Shown here piece after piece: positions 4,102 to 26,223 of a stretch of 39,484 nucleotides of DNA. A model generated the notes under the pieces. The model saw only the letters and a list, made by a program, of their open reading frames with translations. It made no database searches and was not told the DNA's origin. Made by a program: the position numbers and the translations under genes. Source of the stretch: a virus; the IMG/VR virus record IMGVR_UViG_3300032053_000194, positions 1 through 39,484 of that record; one strand, 5' to 3'. The stretch's first letter is position 1. Each line of letters starts with the position of its first letter.

Positions 4102-4298
4102 TAGTAGAAATTTTAAATACCAATAAAGAACTAAAAGTCCGAAAAGGACAATGGTACGTCGCAAAGTCATATTGGATTGATCCCGATAAAGTTACTCTCA
4201 TACAGAGAATATCTAAGAAGAATTTAAGAAATATTGGAAAAGAACCAATGTGTAATCAATATAAATCAGAGGTGAAGGTGTTAAATCCGTCGTTATGA
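4098..4298 (+). CDS. Hypothetical protein, 66 aa
   Basis: I place the start at ATG 4098, which overlaps the upstream TGA (ATGA), rather than at the in-frame TTG at 4068 that lies inside the previous gene. Lys-rich, no recognised motif; it ends by overlapping the next ATG at 4295. Confidence 0.65.
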   Translation: MIVEILNTNKELKVRKGQWYVAKSYWIDPDKVTLIQRISKKNLRNIGKEPMCNQYKSEVKVLNPSL

Positions 4299-4546
4299 AA
4301 AAGAAAATCACTCCCGAAGAGTTTAAATCATTAACCAATAACGAAAAATGGGATTTGATTTTCTATAAGAAGATTAAAAACGCTTTGTGGCATTGTTCAA
4401 ATTGTGGTGAGATGGTTGATAATGGTATATCACCAACTACGATGTTTATAGGATCAAGATTTTGTGGAAGTTGTGACGATCTTTTAACAGAAAGAAGAAA
4501 TGGCGGACAGAACATGCCATGCAACTATACATTCAAATACAAATGA
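4295..4546 (+). CDS. Small zinc-ribbon protein
   Basis: 83 residues with two CxxC knuckles (HCSNCG about residue 33 and FCGSCD about residue 57), forming a likely four-Cys zinc ribbon. It could bind nucleic acid or protein. It is joined by ATGA overlaps to its neighbours. Confidence 0.7.
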   Translation: MKKKITPEEFKSLTNNEKWDLIFYKKIKNALWHCSNCGEMVDNGISPTTMFIGSRFCGSCDDLLTERRNGGQNMPCNYTFKYK

Positions 4547-5361: not shown

Positions 5362-7254
5362 ATGAGCACACAACACTTAGAAACCCAGTACCTGAAAGCG
5401 AAAATTGCTTATTATGAAGGTAACCCCATTATGTCCGATGCCGCTTTTGATGTTCTTGAGAAAGAACTTAAAGTCGCTGGTTCTAAAGTAGTTGAACAGG
5501 TTGGTTCAAAACGAAAAGATTTTGACTTTCCACATCCTAATCCAATGCTTTCCCTGGCAAAAATTCAGACTGAAAGTACAGAGGGTGTTACCAATTATCA
5601 GGAAGACCAATTTCAAAAATGGTTCAAGAAGGTTGATGGTATCATCTTCAAAAAATTCGGAGTTCATATTGAATATCTTTATCGTTCGCCTAAATTCGAC
5701 GGTAATGGTATTAACATCATTTATTCATATGGTGTCCTTCAGAGTGTATTAACCCGTGGAGATGGAAAATTCGGAAAAGACATTACTGACAGATTTAAAA
5801 AACATTTACCTGAAGCCATTGATTTCTCTACGGGGTTACTTGAAATTCGTTGTGAGTGTGTTATTAACCAACCATTGTTTGATAAAAAATATCTTGGTAA
5901 AAAAGAAGATGGAAAATATGCTAACGCAAGAAATTTCGTTGCGGGCGTCTTAGGAAAAGATGATTACTCTCTTGAAAAAGTGGGTGATTTAACCATTATT
6001 CCTGTTGCATTGATAAATGATGGTAAACAAGTTACTCTCGAACTTGTACCTGAAGGTATTAATGGTTTAACTCATCAGGAAAGATTAAATCCAAAAGATT
6101 ATGTTAAATGTATAAAGGAAATGGAAACTCTGAGAGAAACATTTGAAATTCCTCTTGATGGAGTTGTTTTGAGTGTACCATATGATTTCCGTGGAACTCT
6201 TGGTGAGAATGAACATGATCCTGAATGGGCTATCGCAATCAAATTTGTTCCTGATGAAGTAGTAACAAAGGTCGTTGGTCTTGAATGGAATATCAGTAAA
6301 ACAGGCGAGTTTACTCCTGTGGTTCTCTTAAATCCAGTTGAACTTGCTGGTACTATCGTTAAAAGAGCTTCAGGTTATAACGCAGGTTATATCGTCACCA
6401 ATCATATTGGGCCAAACGCCATTGTATCAATAGCCAAAGCAGGTGACATCATTCCCGAAATTCAATCAATAAGCGTTGAAAGTGATGAAACATTTTTACG
6501 TCCACACATTTGTCCCCATTGTAACTCATACCTTGATTTTGACGGAATACATTTAACATGTCCGAATGATTTGTGTCAGGGTAAAATTGCAAAGAAATTG
6601 GCTACAGCCTGTACCTCACTTGACCTCAAAAATGTCGGTGGGAAAACAATTGAGCCATTTGCAGCTGATTTTAATAATATGTGTGAAGTGATGATATGGG
6701 TTTTGATGTTCGGTGACTCCAAAGAAATCGAACAGTATGATATAAAATATCAGTCACGTTCACATGAAATATTCCTCAATGCGTTCAAAAACATTAAATC
6801 TCTCACATACGAACAGGTAATCATTTCACTCGGATTTGACAACGTTGGAAGAAAATTATCTTTACAGATTGCGAGAGAACATTGTGGCCTGGTTCCTGAT
6901 TACTCAGGTTTGGAGAGAGCTCTTGTAACAATGTTACATGAACGTGACGTTGAAGATCAGATTAAAAACGCTGTAACAGTTCTTGAAAGATTAGGTATAA
7001 CAATTGATAAACCCAAAGAAGAAATGGTAACAAAAGACACAGTTTATGTTTGCATGACTGGTAGTCCGAAGATATTCGGATTTCCCACGAAAGCCGAATT
7101 TATTACTAAATTCCCGAATCTTGTTGATGTAGAAATTTCTGATAAAAGATGCCAGTTTCTTATTACTGATTCATATTCTTCAACCAGTAGTAAAATGAAA
7201 ACTGCCGAGAAGAAAGGAATTACTATTAAAACCTATGGTGATTACGGAAGTTAA
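5362..7254 (+). CDS. ligA: NAD-dependent DNA ligase
   Basis: 630 residues, close to bacterial LigA length (about 670). In order: domain Ia (AYYEGNPIMSDAAFD, residues 17-30) for NMN binding; nucleotidyltransferase motif KFDG with the adenylated Lys111; TRGDG at 131-135; EIRCE at 161-165 (ExRGE-like); YANARNFVAG at 186-195; LDGVV at 265-269; IKF near 293-295; OB fold; four-Cys zinc finger Cys384/387/400/405; helix-hairpin-helix region; and a degenerate C-terminal BRCT domain from about residue 565. Seals DNA nicks with NAD+ during phage replication and repair. It is alone behind its own promoter; its stop overlaps the end of the convergent HNH gene by four bases. Confidence 0.95.
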   Translation: MSTQHLETQYLKAKIAYYEGNPIMSDAAFDVLEKELKVAGSKVVEQVGSKRKDFDFPHPNPMLSLAKIQTESTEGVTNYQEDQFQKWFKKVDGIIFKKFGVHIEYLYRSPKFDGNGINIIYSYGVLQSVLTRGDGKFGKDITDRFKKHLPEAIDFSTGLLEIRCECVINQPLFDKKYLGKKEDGKYANARNFVAGVLGKDDYSLEKVGDLTIIPVALINDGKQVTLELVPEGINGLTHQERLNPKDYVKCIKEMETLRETFEIPLDGVVLSVPYDFRGTLGENEHDPEWAIAIKFVPDEVVTKVVGLEWNISKTGEFTPVVLLNPVELAGTIVKRASGYNAGYIVTNHIGPNAIVSIAKAGDIIPEIQSISVESDETFLRPHICPHCNSYLDFDGIHLTCPNDLCQGKIAKKLATACTSLDLKNVGGKTIEPFAADFNNMCEVMIWVLMFGDSKEIEQYDIKYQSRSHEIFLNAFKNIKSLTYEQVIISLGFDNVGRKLSLQIAREHCGLVPDYSGLERALVTMLHERDVEDQIKNAVTVLERLGITIDKPKEEMVTKDTVYVCMTGSPKIFGFPTKAEFITKFPNLVDVEISDKRCQFLITDSYSSTSSKMKTAEKKGITIKTYGDYGS

Positions 7255-21031: not shown

Positions 21032-21770
21032 TAGTTGTGAAGATGTGTTTACTTACGGTCACTGTAAAAGATTAAGTCCGGAAGCCCCAGTAGCGGTGCT
21101 AAATCCAACAGATGTTGTAATAAATGATGGAATGTCCGCCAATGTATATAACAACATTAGAGCATTAGGTGCCGAATGTGATCTTCTCACAAATAAAGAT
21201 AAACCTGTTAAAAATCGATATATTGACAAAACATCAAATCAAACATTACTTAGAGTGGATGATTTTGATGAAATTCGATATATTTTTGAAGATCACGAGA
21301 TTCTTGATAAGATACATTATATGGATTATGATGCAATTGTTATTAGTGATTATAATAAAGGTTATCTGAAAGAAGAAGATATAAGTTTTATTTCAAATCG
21401 ACATCCTCTGGTGTTTCTGGATAGTAAAAAACAATTAGGCGACTGGTGCCATAATGTTCAAGTAATAAAAATAAACGAAAAAGAATATAATACCAATTTA
21501 AAATGGTTAACAGAGAGTTTTCGTAATGATTTGGTTGTCACTTTGGGATTTCATGGGGCAATGTGGGATTATATGTTATTTCCGATTGAAGAAGAACACC
21601 CTGTGAGAGATTTAACAGGGGCTGGCGACACTTTTCTGGCCGCTTTGGTTGTGGAGTATCTAAAAACAAATAATATGAGTGATGCAATTAAATTTGCTAA
21701 TAAATGTGCGGCATGGGCTGTAACTCAAAAAGGCGTTACTGTCATTGATATATATAAAATAAAGTTATGA
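21006..21770 (+). CDS. PfkB-family heptose-7-phosphate kinase-like (HldE kinase domain)
   Basis: 254 residues; E. coli HldE kinase domain is about 318, so this is compact. Signature RLSPEAPVAVL (22-32) is specific to RfaE1-type kinases; DGMSANVYNNIRALG replaces the usual GGAANVA.N; LRVDDFDE, DAIVISDYNKGYL and the catalytic LTGAGDTFLAAL (Asp208) follow. Expected reaction: phosphorylation of D-glycero-D-manno-heptose 7-phosphate at O1. It starts a four-gene sugar operon, each gene overlapping the next by ATGA. Confidence 0.85.
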   Translation: MSKILVIGDSCEDVFTYGHCKRLSPEAPVAVLNPTDVVINDGMSANVYNNIRALGAECDLLTNKDKPVKNRYIDKTSNQTLLRVDDFDEIRYIFEDHEILDKIHYMDYDAIVISDYNKGYLKEEDISFISNRHPLVFLDSKKQLGDWCHNVQVIKINEKEYNTNLKWLTESFRNDLVVTLGFHGAMWDYMLFPIEEEHPVRDLTGAGDTFLAALVVEYLKTNNMSDAIKFANKCAAWAVTQKGVTVIDIYKIKL

Positions 21771-22132
21771 TAGCGTTTATAGAAGAAAAGATTGTTAGTA
21801 AAGGATGGGGTTATGAGGTAATTCTACACAATAAGGGAGATTATTGCGCAAAACTACTGAGGTTTCATAAGGGCGGTAAGGTAAGTTCACATTATCATTT
21901 ATTAAAGACCGAGACATGGTATGTAAGTAAAGGAACATTTGAATTAATTTATTATAATACTGACACAGCGGAAAGGCTTACTCGAATAATACCTAGGGGA
22001 ACAATAATTGAAGTTGAAAAGGGATCACCACATCAATTAATTGCATTAGAAGATAGTGAAATTTTTGAAGCTTCAACTATGCATTATGATTATGATAGTT
22101 ATAGAATAGAAAAAGGAGATAGTCAAAAATGA
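21767..22132 (+). CDS. Cupin-fold protein of the heptose operon
   Basis: 121 residues. Single cupin: GWGYEVILHNKGDYCAKLL, then HYHLLKTETWYVSKG with the metal-binding His/Glu set, and GSPHQLIAL with the second His. Cupins of this kind lie next to sugar-nucleotide genes and are often phosphosugar isomerases or epimerases. It might supply or adjust the heptose precursor; inference from context. Confidence 0.75.
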   Translation: MIAFIEEKIVSKGWGYEVILHNKGDYCAKLLRFHKGGKVSSHYHLLKTETWYVSKGTFELIYYNTDTAERLTRIIPRGTIIEVEKGSPHQLIALEDSEIFEASTMHYDYDSYRIEKGDSQK

Positions 22133-22551
22133 ATATCTGGGTAAATGGATGTTTTGACATTTTACACACTGGACACATTGATCTCTTAGAATATGCTAAA
22201 GATCTTCGGGATCCTAAAAGTAAATATTTACGATTAAATCGTCTTATTGTGGGTATAGACAGTGATAGAAGGGTCAAAGAATTAAAAGGGGGGAATAGAC
22301 CTATTAATAATGAAAGTGACAGAAAACGATTGCTAGAGGCTCTGAGTGTGGTGGATGAAGTTGTTATTTATGATACCGAAGAAGAGATGTGTGATTTTAT
22401 TTCAACATTCGAGATAGATTATATAGTAATAGGTGAAGACTATAAAAATAAAAGAGTTCTTTGTCGAGAACATTCAGCAAATGATGTTGTGTTCTTTCCA
22501 AAAAATGAATATTCTTCAACAGATATTATAGGAAAAATTAAAAAATTATGA
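22129..22551 (+). CDS. Heptose-1-phosphate nucleotidyltransferase-like (HldE C-terminal domain)
   Basis: 140 residues. NGCFDILHTGHIDLL holds the HxGH motif (13-16); VGIDSDRRVKELKGGNRPIN, R-LLEAL-VVDEVV and YIVIGEDYKNK, and a final SSTDIIGKI follow the RfaE2/HldE adenylyltransferase pattern. It would join the heptose 1-phosphate to ATP to make ADP-heptose. In E. coli this and the kinase are one protein; here they are separate. Confidence 0.85.
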   Translation: MNIWVNGCFDILHTGHIDLLEYAKDLRDPKSKYLRLNRLIVGIDSDRRVKELKGGNRPINNESDRKRLLEALSVVDEVVIYDTEEEMCDFISTFEIDYIVIGEDYKNKRVLCREHSANDVVFFPKNEYSSTDIIGKIKKL

Positions 22552-23453
22552 TAGTAGTAACAGGCGGCGAAGGGTTTATCGGAAAAAACCTTCTTGAGGA
22601 GTTAGAAAGACGAGGGAATATTGAAGTTATCTCTCTTGACACAAAAGATGAAAGTCTTAGTATGATTTATAAGTGGCTTTTATTCCAATGCGATCAAATC
22701 GATTGTGTATTTCATCTCGGAGCAATTACCGATACTACTGAAATGGATATAACAAAATTTGACGAATATAATGTTGAATCATCAATTTTTATATGGAATT
22801 TATGTACCAATTATAAAATACCTTTAATATATGCTAGTTCTGCTGCAACATATGGTGATGGTTCTGAAGGATTCGATGATGAAAAAGATATTTTTAATTT
22901 ACGCCCATTAAATCCATATGGATGGTCTAAACAGCAATTTGATCTATGGATTGAAGAACAAGAAAATCATCCGCCATTTTGGTATGGACTAAAATTTTTC
23001 AATGTATATGGTTTTGGCGAAGATCATAAAGGAAAAATGGCATCGGTTGTTTTTCACGCATATAATCAGATAAATGATACAGGAAAAATTAAACTTTTTA
23101 AATCGCATAATCCACATTTTAAAGACGGAGAACAATTAAGAGATTTTATATATGTTGATGATATTGTTGATGTTTGTATTTGGATGAATGACATAAAACC
23201 CAAATCTGGAATATATAATGTAGGTACAGGAAAAGCCCGCACATTTAACGATTTAGCCAGATCTGTATTCAAATCTATAGATGTAAAAGAGAAAATCACG
23301 TATATTGATACCCCCACTAAAATAAGAGATAAGTACCAATACTATACAGAAGCAAAAATTAATAAATTAAGAAAAGCTGGATATGTGGGTATTTTTCAGG
23401 AACTTGAAGATGGCGTCGAAAAATATATACAAAAATTATTAAAAAAAGATTAG
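22548..23453 (+). CDS. NAD(P)-dependent sugar epimerase, HldD (ADP-heptose 6-epimerase)-like
   Basis: 301 residues, close to HldD (310). Rossmann motif GGEGFIG (6-12), catalytic Ser in YASSAATYG (95-103), Tyr124 and Lys128 in NPYGWSKQ, and the HldD-like stretches FHLGAITDTTEMD, GLKFFNVYG and QLRDFIYVDDIVDV. Would convert ADP-D-glycero- to ADP-L-glycero-D-manno-heptose. Last gene of the ATGA-linked operon. Confidence 0.87.
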   Translation: MIVVTGGEGFIGKNLLEELERRGNIEVISLDTKDESLSMIYKWLLFQCDQIDCVFHLGAITDTTEMDITKFDEYNVESSIFIWNLCTNYKIPLIYASSAATYGDGSEGFDDEKDIFNLRPLNPYGWSKQQFDLWIEEQENHPPFWYGLKFFNVYGFGEDHKGKMASVVFHAYNQINDTGKIKLFKSHNPHFKDGEQLRDFIYVDDIVDVCIWMNDIKPKSGIYNVGTGKARTFNDLARSVFKSIDVKEKITYIDTPTKIRDKYQYYTEAKINKLRKAGYVGIFQELEDGVEKYIQKLLKKD

Positions 23454-24482: not shown

Positions 24483-24514
24483 TTTGGCAATTACAAAAAT
24501 GTTATTTATATTTG
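24483..24514 (+). promoter_or_regulatory. Bacteroidota-type promoter
   Basis: TTTGG 24483-24487, 19 bases, TATATTTG 24507-24514; ATG at 24554. Confidence 0.8.
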
Positions 24515-24553: not shown

Positions 24554-25483
24554 ATGAAAAAGCATTCACTCGCATCAACAGGTTTAAGCCTTTCACAGGC
24601 TCAGTCAATTTCTAATCTCTGCAATCAGAGATCAATTGAAATCGGAAATGTACTTGGAGGAGTTAATAACTACAGTAAGTCTGTGAAAATTAATAATGAA
24701 ACGTTCAATACCGTTCAGGGTAAAAAACTGCCTAAAAATGTCGTTGATCTTCTTAAAGAGAAGGCCGAACTTCATGCTACGCAGGCATTTCTTATGGAGA
24801 ATATGAAGGAAAAGGATAATGTACTCAGACAATTAAAAGTTGTTCAGGCAGATATTTCTGGCGTTAAATTTCCACAAGATTATGATTATCTTGATCCAAA
24901 GGTAGTCCCACAGGTTGATGAAACTTGGGGTTGGGAACAGCTTAGTGCATTCGAATATAATGAATATCTGGAAGCAGAAGCATATGCTTCGCATATTGGT
25001 CAATTCATTCATAAAGGATCAACCCTTGACAAGTTAAGGGCAGAACTCCCAACACTTCCCGCCATTGAGTGGATGATTATTCAGGATGGCGTGAAAAGTC
25101 CTGTTGATATTAAGCCTCATCACACATCAGAAGAACTTCTTGAAGTTCACGAAGAACTTGCAGGAATTCATCGTGGGTACGAACAAAGAGTTAATTATTT
25201 CAAAGCTAAGGTCAAAAACTTAATCACAGAAGAGAACGCTCGTATTGCTAAACTCAATTCTGATGTTCAGAATGAGGCATCAAAGATTAATCTTGATCGT
25301 CAGGGCGCATATGAAACTGAGTATAAAAAGGCAACCGAAGAGGTTAAAACCATCAGAGCAGAGTTCGAAAAAGGCCGTCAGGCATCCATCAAAGAAGTTG
25401 CGGCACTGCGTATTCAAGTCGATCCACGTTTCCAAAAAGTGGTTAACATTTTCTTGAGTAAACTTCCTGAAACACAGGATTAA
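24554..25483 (+). CDS. Coiled-coil protein of unknown function, 309 aa
   Basis: Helical throughout; the N-terminus is Ser/Gln-rich (SLASTGLSLSQAQSISNLC), the middle has a DETWGWEQLSAFEYNEYLE segment, and residues 195-290 form long charged helices with coiled-coil spacing. No known domain. It stands alone behind a strong promoter and its codon choice (more CGT, CTT and GCA) differs from the AT-extreme small genes, suggesting high expression. The structured RNA region follows at once. Confidence 0.75.
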   Translation: MKKHSLASTGLSLSQAQSISNLCNQRSIEIGNVLGGVNNYSKSVKINNETFNTVQGKKLPKNVVDLLKEKAELHATQAFLMENMKEKDNVLRQLKVVQADISGVKFPQDYDYLDPKVVPQVDETWGWEQLSAFEYNEYLEAEAYASHIGQFIHKGSTLDKLRAELPTLPAIEWMIIQDGVKSPVDIKPHHTSEELLEVHEELAGIHRGYEQRVNYFKAKVKNLITEENARIAKLNSDVQNEASKINLDRQGAYETEYKKATEEVKTIRAEFEKGRQASIKEVAALRIQVDPRFQKVVNIFLSKLPETQD

Positions 25484-25490
25484 TCATATA

Positions 25491-25842
25491 CTAAGGTGAA
25501 GGATGGACAAAGTACAAACTGAGTTCATCCTTCTTTGCACTTAGTGGTAGAGTTCTTTTACATATATGAAATTAGTTATAAACTAAAGCGTTGCCGCCCC
25601 GTGCGGCTACAATCTAATGGTGAAACCGCTTCTTCTACGAAATCAGGTTTTTTGTGGGGTTTCCGAAAAACGACCACGACTGCCGTGTAAGTTACTCTAC
25701 TGAGACTTTATGAGATCAGAGAGAAAAATTATACGGAGGAAGAAAATTAGACTTGGTTCTCGCCTTTGCCCTTGTATGTAGAGGAAGGTCTTTGACATTG
25801 ATTTTGGTTTTGACTGTATCTATATCGCTTTACCGCTAAGTG
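25491..25842 (+). ncRNA. Structured non-coding RNA candidate, about 350 nt
   Basis: No ORF fills this interval, yet it is dense in pairing. Hairpin 25498-25508 / 25523-25533 (11 bp). Long-range closing stem 25538-25553 / 25827-25842 (16 bp with four G-U pairs). Inside: TTAGTT/AACTAA (25572-25586), GCCGC/GCGGC (25593-25607), GAAACC/GGTTTC (25622-25663), CACG/CGTG (25675-25687), and CTCT-CTGA/TCAG-AGAG (25695-25723). GC content is higher than around it. It has no promoter of its own that I can see, so it may be cut from the 3' end of the 24554 mRNA. It does not match RNase P, tmRNA, 6S or group I core sequences that I know. Confidence 0.6.
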
Positions 25843-25863
25843 ACTTATTTTTTCCATAAATTA

Positions 25864-25895
25864 TTTGGTAGTCTCAAATATTTATCATATCTTTG
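25864..25895 (+). promoter_or_regulatory. Bacteroidota-type promoter
   Basis: TTTGG 25864-25868, 19 bases, TATCTTTG 25888-25895; ATG at 25909. The spacer has the recurring AGTCTCAAATATT block. Confidence 0.83.
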
Positions 25896-25908
25896 TATCA
25901 ATAAAATT

Positions 25909-26223
25909 ATGATAACGAAAATTATACATATTGACACAAAAGAACCTGTAACAACAGTGCCTCTCAGGGAATATGCTGCTCATCAAATAGTCCATCTTTC
26001 ATATCTTTATAATATGAATTGCGAAACTAAGATTCAATGTATATTAAACGAATTTAAAAATTCAACTGAAGATTTAATACTGTTAGTTGTAAGATTTGTG
26101 TTACCAGAAAATCGTCCTTCTTGGATTCGGAGCAAGAAATATTGGGAACAGTATAAAGAACATAACAAAAATCGTTGGGGATTTCAAATTATAAATCCAA
26201 AATTATATGGCAACGCTAGTTAA
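25909..26223 (+). CDS. Hypothetical protein, 104 aa
   Basis: ATG 25909 lies 13 bases after the -7 box; the upstream TTG-type start at 25840 is within the RNA region. The N-terminus forms strands (KIIHIDTKEPVTTVPL) and the C-terminus is basic and aromatic. No recognised domain. Overlaps the next gene by 17 bases. Confidence 0.7.
   Translation: MITKIIHIDTKEPVTTVPLREYAAHQIVHLSYLYNMNCETKIQCILNEFKNSTEDLILLVVRFVLPENRPSWIRSKKYWEQYKEHNKNRWGFQIINPKLYGNAS

Follow-up and report, generated by a model that had tools for sequence, protein, structure and literature searches.

Introduction

Large structured RNAs are rare, and those that have been studied well proved to be unusual, among them ribozymes, RNA cages and ribonucleoproteins. 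OLE is a large structured RNA of bacteria with dedicated protein partners. On a smaller scale, the TRAP protein binds regularly spaced triplets, and 3′ UTR-derived bacterial small RNAs lie at the 3′ ends of coding transcripts, from which they may be released by processing. GOLLD and ROOL are large structured RNAs of phages that are often located by tRNA islands and whose function is unknown (PMC12286853); the protein partners of OLE are cited in the same paper.

Here we describe an RNA of ~355 nt encoded in 39,484 nt of viral DNA (IMG/VR record IMGVR_UViG_3300032053_000194; hereafter the window), immediately downstream of the gene for a 309-aa protein, p309. Its status as a conserved new family without a match to known ones is strongly supported. 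The initial annotation of this DNA had proposed a large structured RNA that switches between two exclusive folds. The new structured RNA is borne out and the switch is not supported, and both the partner gene p309 and two arrays with a 6-nt period had been overlooked.

Results

The interval from 25484 to 25909 contains no plausible gene, and the longest open reading frame that fits within it encodes 51 aa from a TTG start, which bears out the gene-free stretch of about 420 bases reported at first. The RNA region folds with an energy of -113.2 kcal/mol, as compared to -88.0 +/- 5.2 kcal/mol in dinucleotide shuffles (z = -4.85), and 0 of 100 shuffles fold as well. The region was also said to be more GC-rich than its surroundings. 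At 39.4% GC it does exceed the window (32.4%; 96th percentile). The preceding gene, however, already has 38.8% GC, so a clearly higher AT content is confined to the flanking spacers and the downstream DNA. The elements described below are listed in Table 1.

Table 1. Features of the p309-RNA locus in window coordinates.
Feature	Position	Strand	Evidence and remarks
Bacteroidota-type promoter (TTTG-N-TAnnTTTG) ahead of p309	24483..24514	+	Pattern match
p309, 309 aa, upstream neighbour of the RNA	24554..25483	+	RNA follows in 94/96 distinct homologues
P0, 5′ strand	25493..25495	+	Partner 25844-25846; covariation at 25494-25845, E below null resolution; 97% of cells paired
H1, 5′ hairpin with conserved tip of GC-ACAA-GC type	25498..25533	+	7 covarying pairs, including tip pair 25512-25519; probability >0.97
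P1, 5′ strand (stem of the initial annotation)	25538..25553	+	Covariation at 25541, 25542, 25545
P2, window hairpin in variable region	25570..25624	+	Homologues vary in sequence and length; alignments, window fold
Conserved ACCGC ahead of P3; final base is the first of P3	25625..25629	+	Alignment
P3, 5′ strand, pyrimidine-rich	25629..25638	+	Partner 25778-25787; 4 covarying pairs; two-sided changes in 10/10
P4, hairpin	25652..25679	+	Alignment, window fold; missing in L082
P5 with inner hairpin, conserved UUA/UAA core	25682..25741	+	3 covarying pairs; 87-95% of cells paired in two main segments
Array 1, purine at 25750, 25756, 25762, 25768, 25774, U-rich between	25750..25774	+	98-100% purine in 61 sequences
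P3, 3′ strand, purine-rich, separates the two arrays	25778..25787	+	Covariation, pair counts
Array 2, purine at 25788, 25794, 25800, 25806, 25812, 25818, conserved CUAU end	25788..25823	+	98-100% purine in 61 sequences
P1, 3′ strand	25827..25842	+	Covariation, window fold, pair counts
U-rich end of RNA, with P0 3′ strand (25844-25846)	25844..25853	+	Sequence, covariation; 3′ end approximate
Bacteroidota-type promoter of the next gene, after the RNA	25864..25895	+	Pattern match

Covariation was analyzed in 61 non-redundant sequences aligned with MAFFT E-INS-i. All column pairs were ranked by an APC-corrected G statistic using our own re-implementation of the R-scape idea, and a null without a fold was provided by 60 alignments evolved along a FastTree tree with the observed substitutions. 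Apart from the window, all sequences derive from other uncultured records and include some near-copies; duplicates were removed before distinct counts were taken. Twenty column pairs were recovered at E < 0.5. Eighteen of these sort into five mutually compatible helices, P0, H1, P1, P3 and P5, a positive outcome of the covariation check that the initial annotation had proposed; the remaining two pairs join columns 4 apart and form no helix. A second MAFFT alignment (46 sequences), evaluated by pair counting, had 84% of cells paired and two-sided changes in 37 of 44 pairs; two-sided changes occupied 380 cells, as compared to 133 in shuffles, and every slid control was far lower. When the window sequence was folded without constraints, nearly all pairs of H1, P1, P3 and P5 had probabilities >0.8, and low values were obtained for P0 (0.16) and for the P5 pair 25692-25727 (0.07).

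The 16-bp closing stem recognized at the outset, P1, is present as 16 contiguous pairs, 3 of them G·U. Its conserved part consists of the outer 8 pairs, in which 90% of cells are paired and two-sided changes occur at 8 of 8 positions; covarying pairs span 25541-25839 to 25545-25835, pair probability is >0.99 where examined (25539-25545), and the inner 8 pairs (25546-25553/25827-25834) are without support in the family alignment. Several of the inner helices noted originally are also present, with P0, H1, P3 and P5 backed by covariation in addition to the closing stem. The covarying pairs span 25630-25786 to 25637-25779 in P3 and 25684-25735 to 25688-25731 in P5. H1, previously cast as a competing 5′ hairpin, is conserved as a helix in its own right, compatible with P1, and the 5′ AAGGU covaries instead with ACUUU at the 3′ end, forming P0, which closes the ends of the RNA; position pair 25494-25845 is A-U, U-A, G-C or G-U in 61 of 61 sequences. 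P4 has a long form, a GUGG/CCAC hairpin found in window-like sequences, and a short form, a hairpin of sequence UGAG-AUAGAA-CUC(A) that has a nearly invariant loop and is found in 35 of 61 homologues. In a natural deletion, L082, both P4 and P5 are gone and everything else, including the arrays, is kept. P4 and P5 therefore appear to be dispensable, leaving a core composed of P0, H1, P1, P3 and the arrays.

The most conserved stretches of the RNA are not its helices but the two arrays, which together have 11 purine positions with a spacing of 6 nt. Base five of the hexamer is U in 93-100% of the 61 sequences, up to 25816, and the period-6 purine contrast is 0.80, as compared to a maximum of 0.61 in 20,000 column permutations. 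No covarying pair touching the arrays was found among all column pairs of the 61 sequences. An origin of the pattern in coding sequence was rejected, as only 22 of 61 sequences keep the frame open and the distance from one array to the other varies by 12-14 nt. Such arrays could, in our view, be the surface to which a ring-shaped or repeated protein binds.

Searches with the covariance models of all 4227 Rfam families gave no match at the RNA, in the window or in homologues, and permissive thresholds produced weak matches only, all under the gathering score. This fits the initial impression of a large structured RNA outside the known classes, formed by eye for RNase P, tmRNA, 6S and group I cores, for none of which, nor for any known riboswitch, was there a covariance-model match at the RNA. 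Gathering thresholds of the GOLLD (RF02032), ROOL and OLE models were not reached at the RNA, and the same search recovered a true GOLLD in L017. Group I and tRNA models do score elsewhere in the same loci. A TPP riboswitch, considered for a CUGAGA..GAUAAU likeness, was discarded since Rfam makes no TPP call. Literature searches found no description of the RNA.

Relatives of p309 were drawn from IMG/VR (92 in one search and 193 in another, with 80 kept of each), giving a sample that spans relatives at ~44% identity or above, and the RNA was located in their DNA by nhmmer. It was found downstream of p309 and on the same strand in 94 of 96 distinct genes (worst E-value 1.1e-17); at the other two the contig ends there, so that 94 of 94 testable genes have the RNA. 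Conversely, exact-pattern scans with two different RNA motifs retrieved loci having p309 upstream, the exceptions being L113 and L177, where the fetched DNA ends before the p309 position. Two further scans yielded no matches and a single locus, respectively. Pattern matches at L105, L106, L112 and L117 were rejected as family members; they have neither p309 nor the RNA and probably arose by chance. Besides p309, no neighbour family exceeds 17 of 73 loci, and because the other neighbours are not conserved, p309 and the RNA constitute a conserved unit in a shuffled neighbourhood. Their linkage suggests a joint machine or control circuit. The RNA occurs once per genome in the records searched, including one of 365 kb. 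Among 84,980 bacterial and archaeal species genomes there were two relatives, both from metagenome bins; 50,697 GenBank phage records and 72,556 plasmids yielded none.

Sequence identity of p309 is 46-62% across 44 homologues, with conserved residues clustering in the second long helix (HHT...HEELA..HR.YEQRVNYFKAKVKN). Searches of Pfam, PHROGs and PDB with the p309 sequence gave no convincing relative. The AlphaFold2 model is confident (pLDDT 87, pTM 0.79) and consists of a helix, a beta hairpin and a long helix, present twice in tandem in that order, which suggests an internal duplication in the modeled protein. A fold search of PDB returned no usable structural match; among viral models the one close structural relative is A0A6J5N6M1 (TM 0.94), an uncharacterised protein of an uncultured phage. 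The model has no recognisable RNA-binding fold, and since p309 is mildly acidic (mean pI 6.1), RNA binding by it is not obvious.

In the window the p309 stop codon lies ten bases before the first helix of the RNA, and across the family the final stop codon of the p309 operon is in nearly all cases no more than ~15 nt from the start of the RNA, even when same-strand genes have been inserted. The offset from p309 is unusual in ten loci. Nine of these have gaps of 126-1467 nt, and the tenth, L262, is a slightly early call. Same-strand open reading frames fill seven of the nine gaps, most of which begin a few bases past the p309 stop and extend as far as the RNA; the gaps of L027 and L261 are mainly non-coding. 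In each of these two, the stretch inserted after p309 and ahead of the RNA is GC-rich, contains inverted repeats and has no obvious coding character (L261 3424-3565; L027 3915-4041). The pattern TTTG-N-TAnnTTTG is a promoter of the Bacteroidota type. The window contains 12 such sites, as compared to 3.4 expected, a number that 0 of 100 shuffles reach; none of the 12 separates p309 from the RNA. Strict matches are few in homologues (upstream in 6 of 115, downstream in 3 of 115, and 1 inside the gene end). Intrinsic terminators just past the RNA are ~5 times commoner than in control stretches (15 of 91 versus 18 of 567). The same-strand inserts, the flanking promoters of the window and the enrichment of terminators indicate that transcription from p309 most likely runs on into the RNA, which would form the 3′ end of the message; this placement is read from sequence.

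Carrier records reach 373 kb, and a terminase is present in 7 of 10 large ones. The carriers are large tailed phages, uncultured, that probably infect Bacteroidota, this host being suggested by the richness of the window in promoter sites of the corresponding type. In many homologues the RNA lies in a tRNA island. The 364,702-bp record G005 (loci L212-L214) has a near-complete tRNA set of >45 genes, one of which, called as tRNA-Pyl, has a CTA anticodon and may be a suppressor. The tRNA island of L017 includes a GOLLD RNA at 5534-5948 (306 bits), ~1.3 kb downstream of the new RNA, and L017 also has a group I intron at 4280-4467, downstream of p309 and the new RNA. Hatchet ribozymes scoring 79-83 bits, well over the Rfam cut-off, lie ~2 kb or less upstream of p309 in five loci (L056 1059-1195; L054 1023-1160; L077 1734-1871; L052 2487-2623; L046 1208-1374). 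Elsewhere in the window, 2050-2727 on the minus strand encodes a GIY-YIG endonuclease that carries a NUMOD3 motif and probably acts in homing, and 21767-23453 holds a metabolic-looking row of cysteine dioxygenase-like, heptose/nucleotidyl transferase-like and nucleotide-sugar epimerase-like genes.

Discussion

We tentatively favor, ahead of all other readings although at somewhat less than even chances, a two-part phage module in which p309 and the RNA would act together as a ribonucleoprotein, with the arrays docking a repeated protein. The two components would be co-transcribed, with the RNA forming the 3′ end of the transcript. P0, P1 and P3 would keep the two arrays open and thereby offer about eleven equally spaced docking sites to a repeated or multimeric protein, which may be p309 itself, another phage factor or a host factor, in a manner resembling TRAP on its spaced triplets. 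This module is favored because the linkage holds in 94 of 94 testable genes, unlike that of every other neighbour family, and because scans for RNA patterns lead back to p309. Further reasons are the 18 covarying pairs, with which the second alignment agrees, the survival of the periodic, non-coding arrays in L082, and the gap-filling same-strand reading frames that end at the RNA, with terminators enriched after it. Counting against it are the mild acidity of p309 and its lack of a recognisable RNA-binding fold; in addition, linkage by itself equally fits a purely cis-acting 3′ UTR. A bolder formulation, which we regard as doubtful, is that of a new phage ribonucleoprotein class: an RNA scaffold that would show about eleven hexamer sites to a p309 multimer, made from one transcript with it, retained in a large group of jumbo phages and serving a function unlike that of any known phage RNA.

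Ranked second, and in our judgment rather unlikely, is a 3′ UTR of the p309 mRNA that acts in cis, through which p309 or a host factor would set stability, translation or location of the message, with no role in trans. Such an element would be expected to begin close to the end of the coding sequence, as the RNA does in nearly all loci (~15 nt or less from the final stop of the p309 operon, even where same-strand genes have been inserted), and to have a promoter ahead of p309 with none before the RNA, as in the window. However, an RNA of this size, with such a complex conserved core, would be an unusual stability element, and in ten loci the RNA is 126-1467 nt off, mostly behind other genes.

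An RNA-only assembly acting in trans, a homo-oligomer or cage like GOLLD or ROOL to which p309 is merely linked, comes third and seems improbable. It would share with those RNAs a setting in phage genomes, often in tRNA islands (PMC12286853), and in L017 a GOLLD RNA is close to the new one, but perfect linkage to one protein gene argues against it, as do a length half that of GOLLD and ROOL and the absence of a match to any Rfam model.

There is little to recommend a transcription-control RNA, either an antiterminator or a polymerase-binding RNA, that acts on downstream genes. Those genes often share its strand, and the AGAACUCA hairpin of many homologues recalls a NusA site, which we count in favor of transcription control as a lead only; the downstream genes are nonetheless variable rather than conserved, terminators come after the RNA at 15 of 91 loci, and the window has a new promoter beyond it. 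Still harder to sustain is a DNA element, such as an origin, packaging or recombination site, that merely resembles an RNA. Its single copy per genome in the searched records would suit one, but the helices contain 327 G·U pairs as opposed to 43 A·C mismatches, an excess that fits an RNA on this strand. In the 365-kb record the RNA lies away from the GC-skew extremum, and a replication origin was rejected for want of GC-skew support there. Least probable, and already disfavored, is the two-state switch of the initial annotation. CACTTAG can pair with both 25491-25498 and 25836-25842 in the window and, by centroid fold, in its close relative L002, but only the latter pairing is conserved: of 46 homologues, 34 have complete P1 pairing of this strand and 6 the complete alternative. 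Covariation links the 5′ strand instead to the 3′ end.

The RNA has strong comparative support, yet neither Rfam nor any of the GenBank phage genomes searched contains it. Its obligate protein partner, p309, provides a direct experimental handle that GOLLD and ROOL do not have, and the 6-nt-periodic arrays are an unusual and testable candidate signature of protein binding.

Like GOLLD and ROOL, the new RNA is large, structured, carried by phages and often near tRNA islands; it differs in its length of ~355 nt, as opposed to ~660 to over 800 nt, in its tie to one protein gene, and in its 6-nt-periodic arrays. The tie to a protein gene recalls OLE by analogy rather than membership, as the two are unrelated by Rfam search, the new RNA is phage-borne and p309 belongs to no known family. 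With TRAP sites of the trp leader it shares, again by analogy and not by membership, a run of about 11 regularly spaced short motifs without pairing, found in the arrays at 11 positions. In contrast to the GAG/UAG triplets and short spacers of TRAP sites, the arrays combine purine and U at 6-nt spacing and are embedded in a large fold, and there is no TRAP-like protein. Finally, the new RNA would share with 3′ UTR-derived small RNAs a 3′-terminal place in a coding transcript, but it is much larger and more structured than these and has been kept with one gene across a large group of phages.
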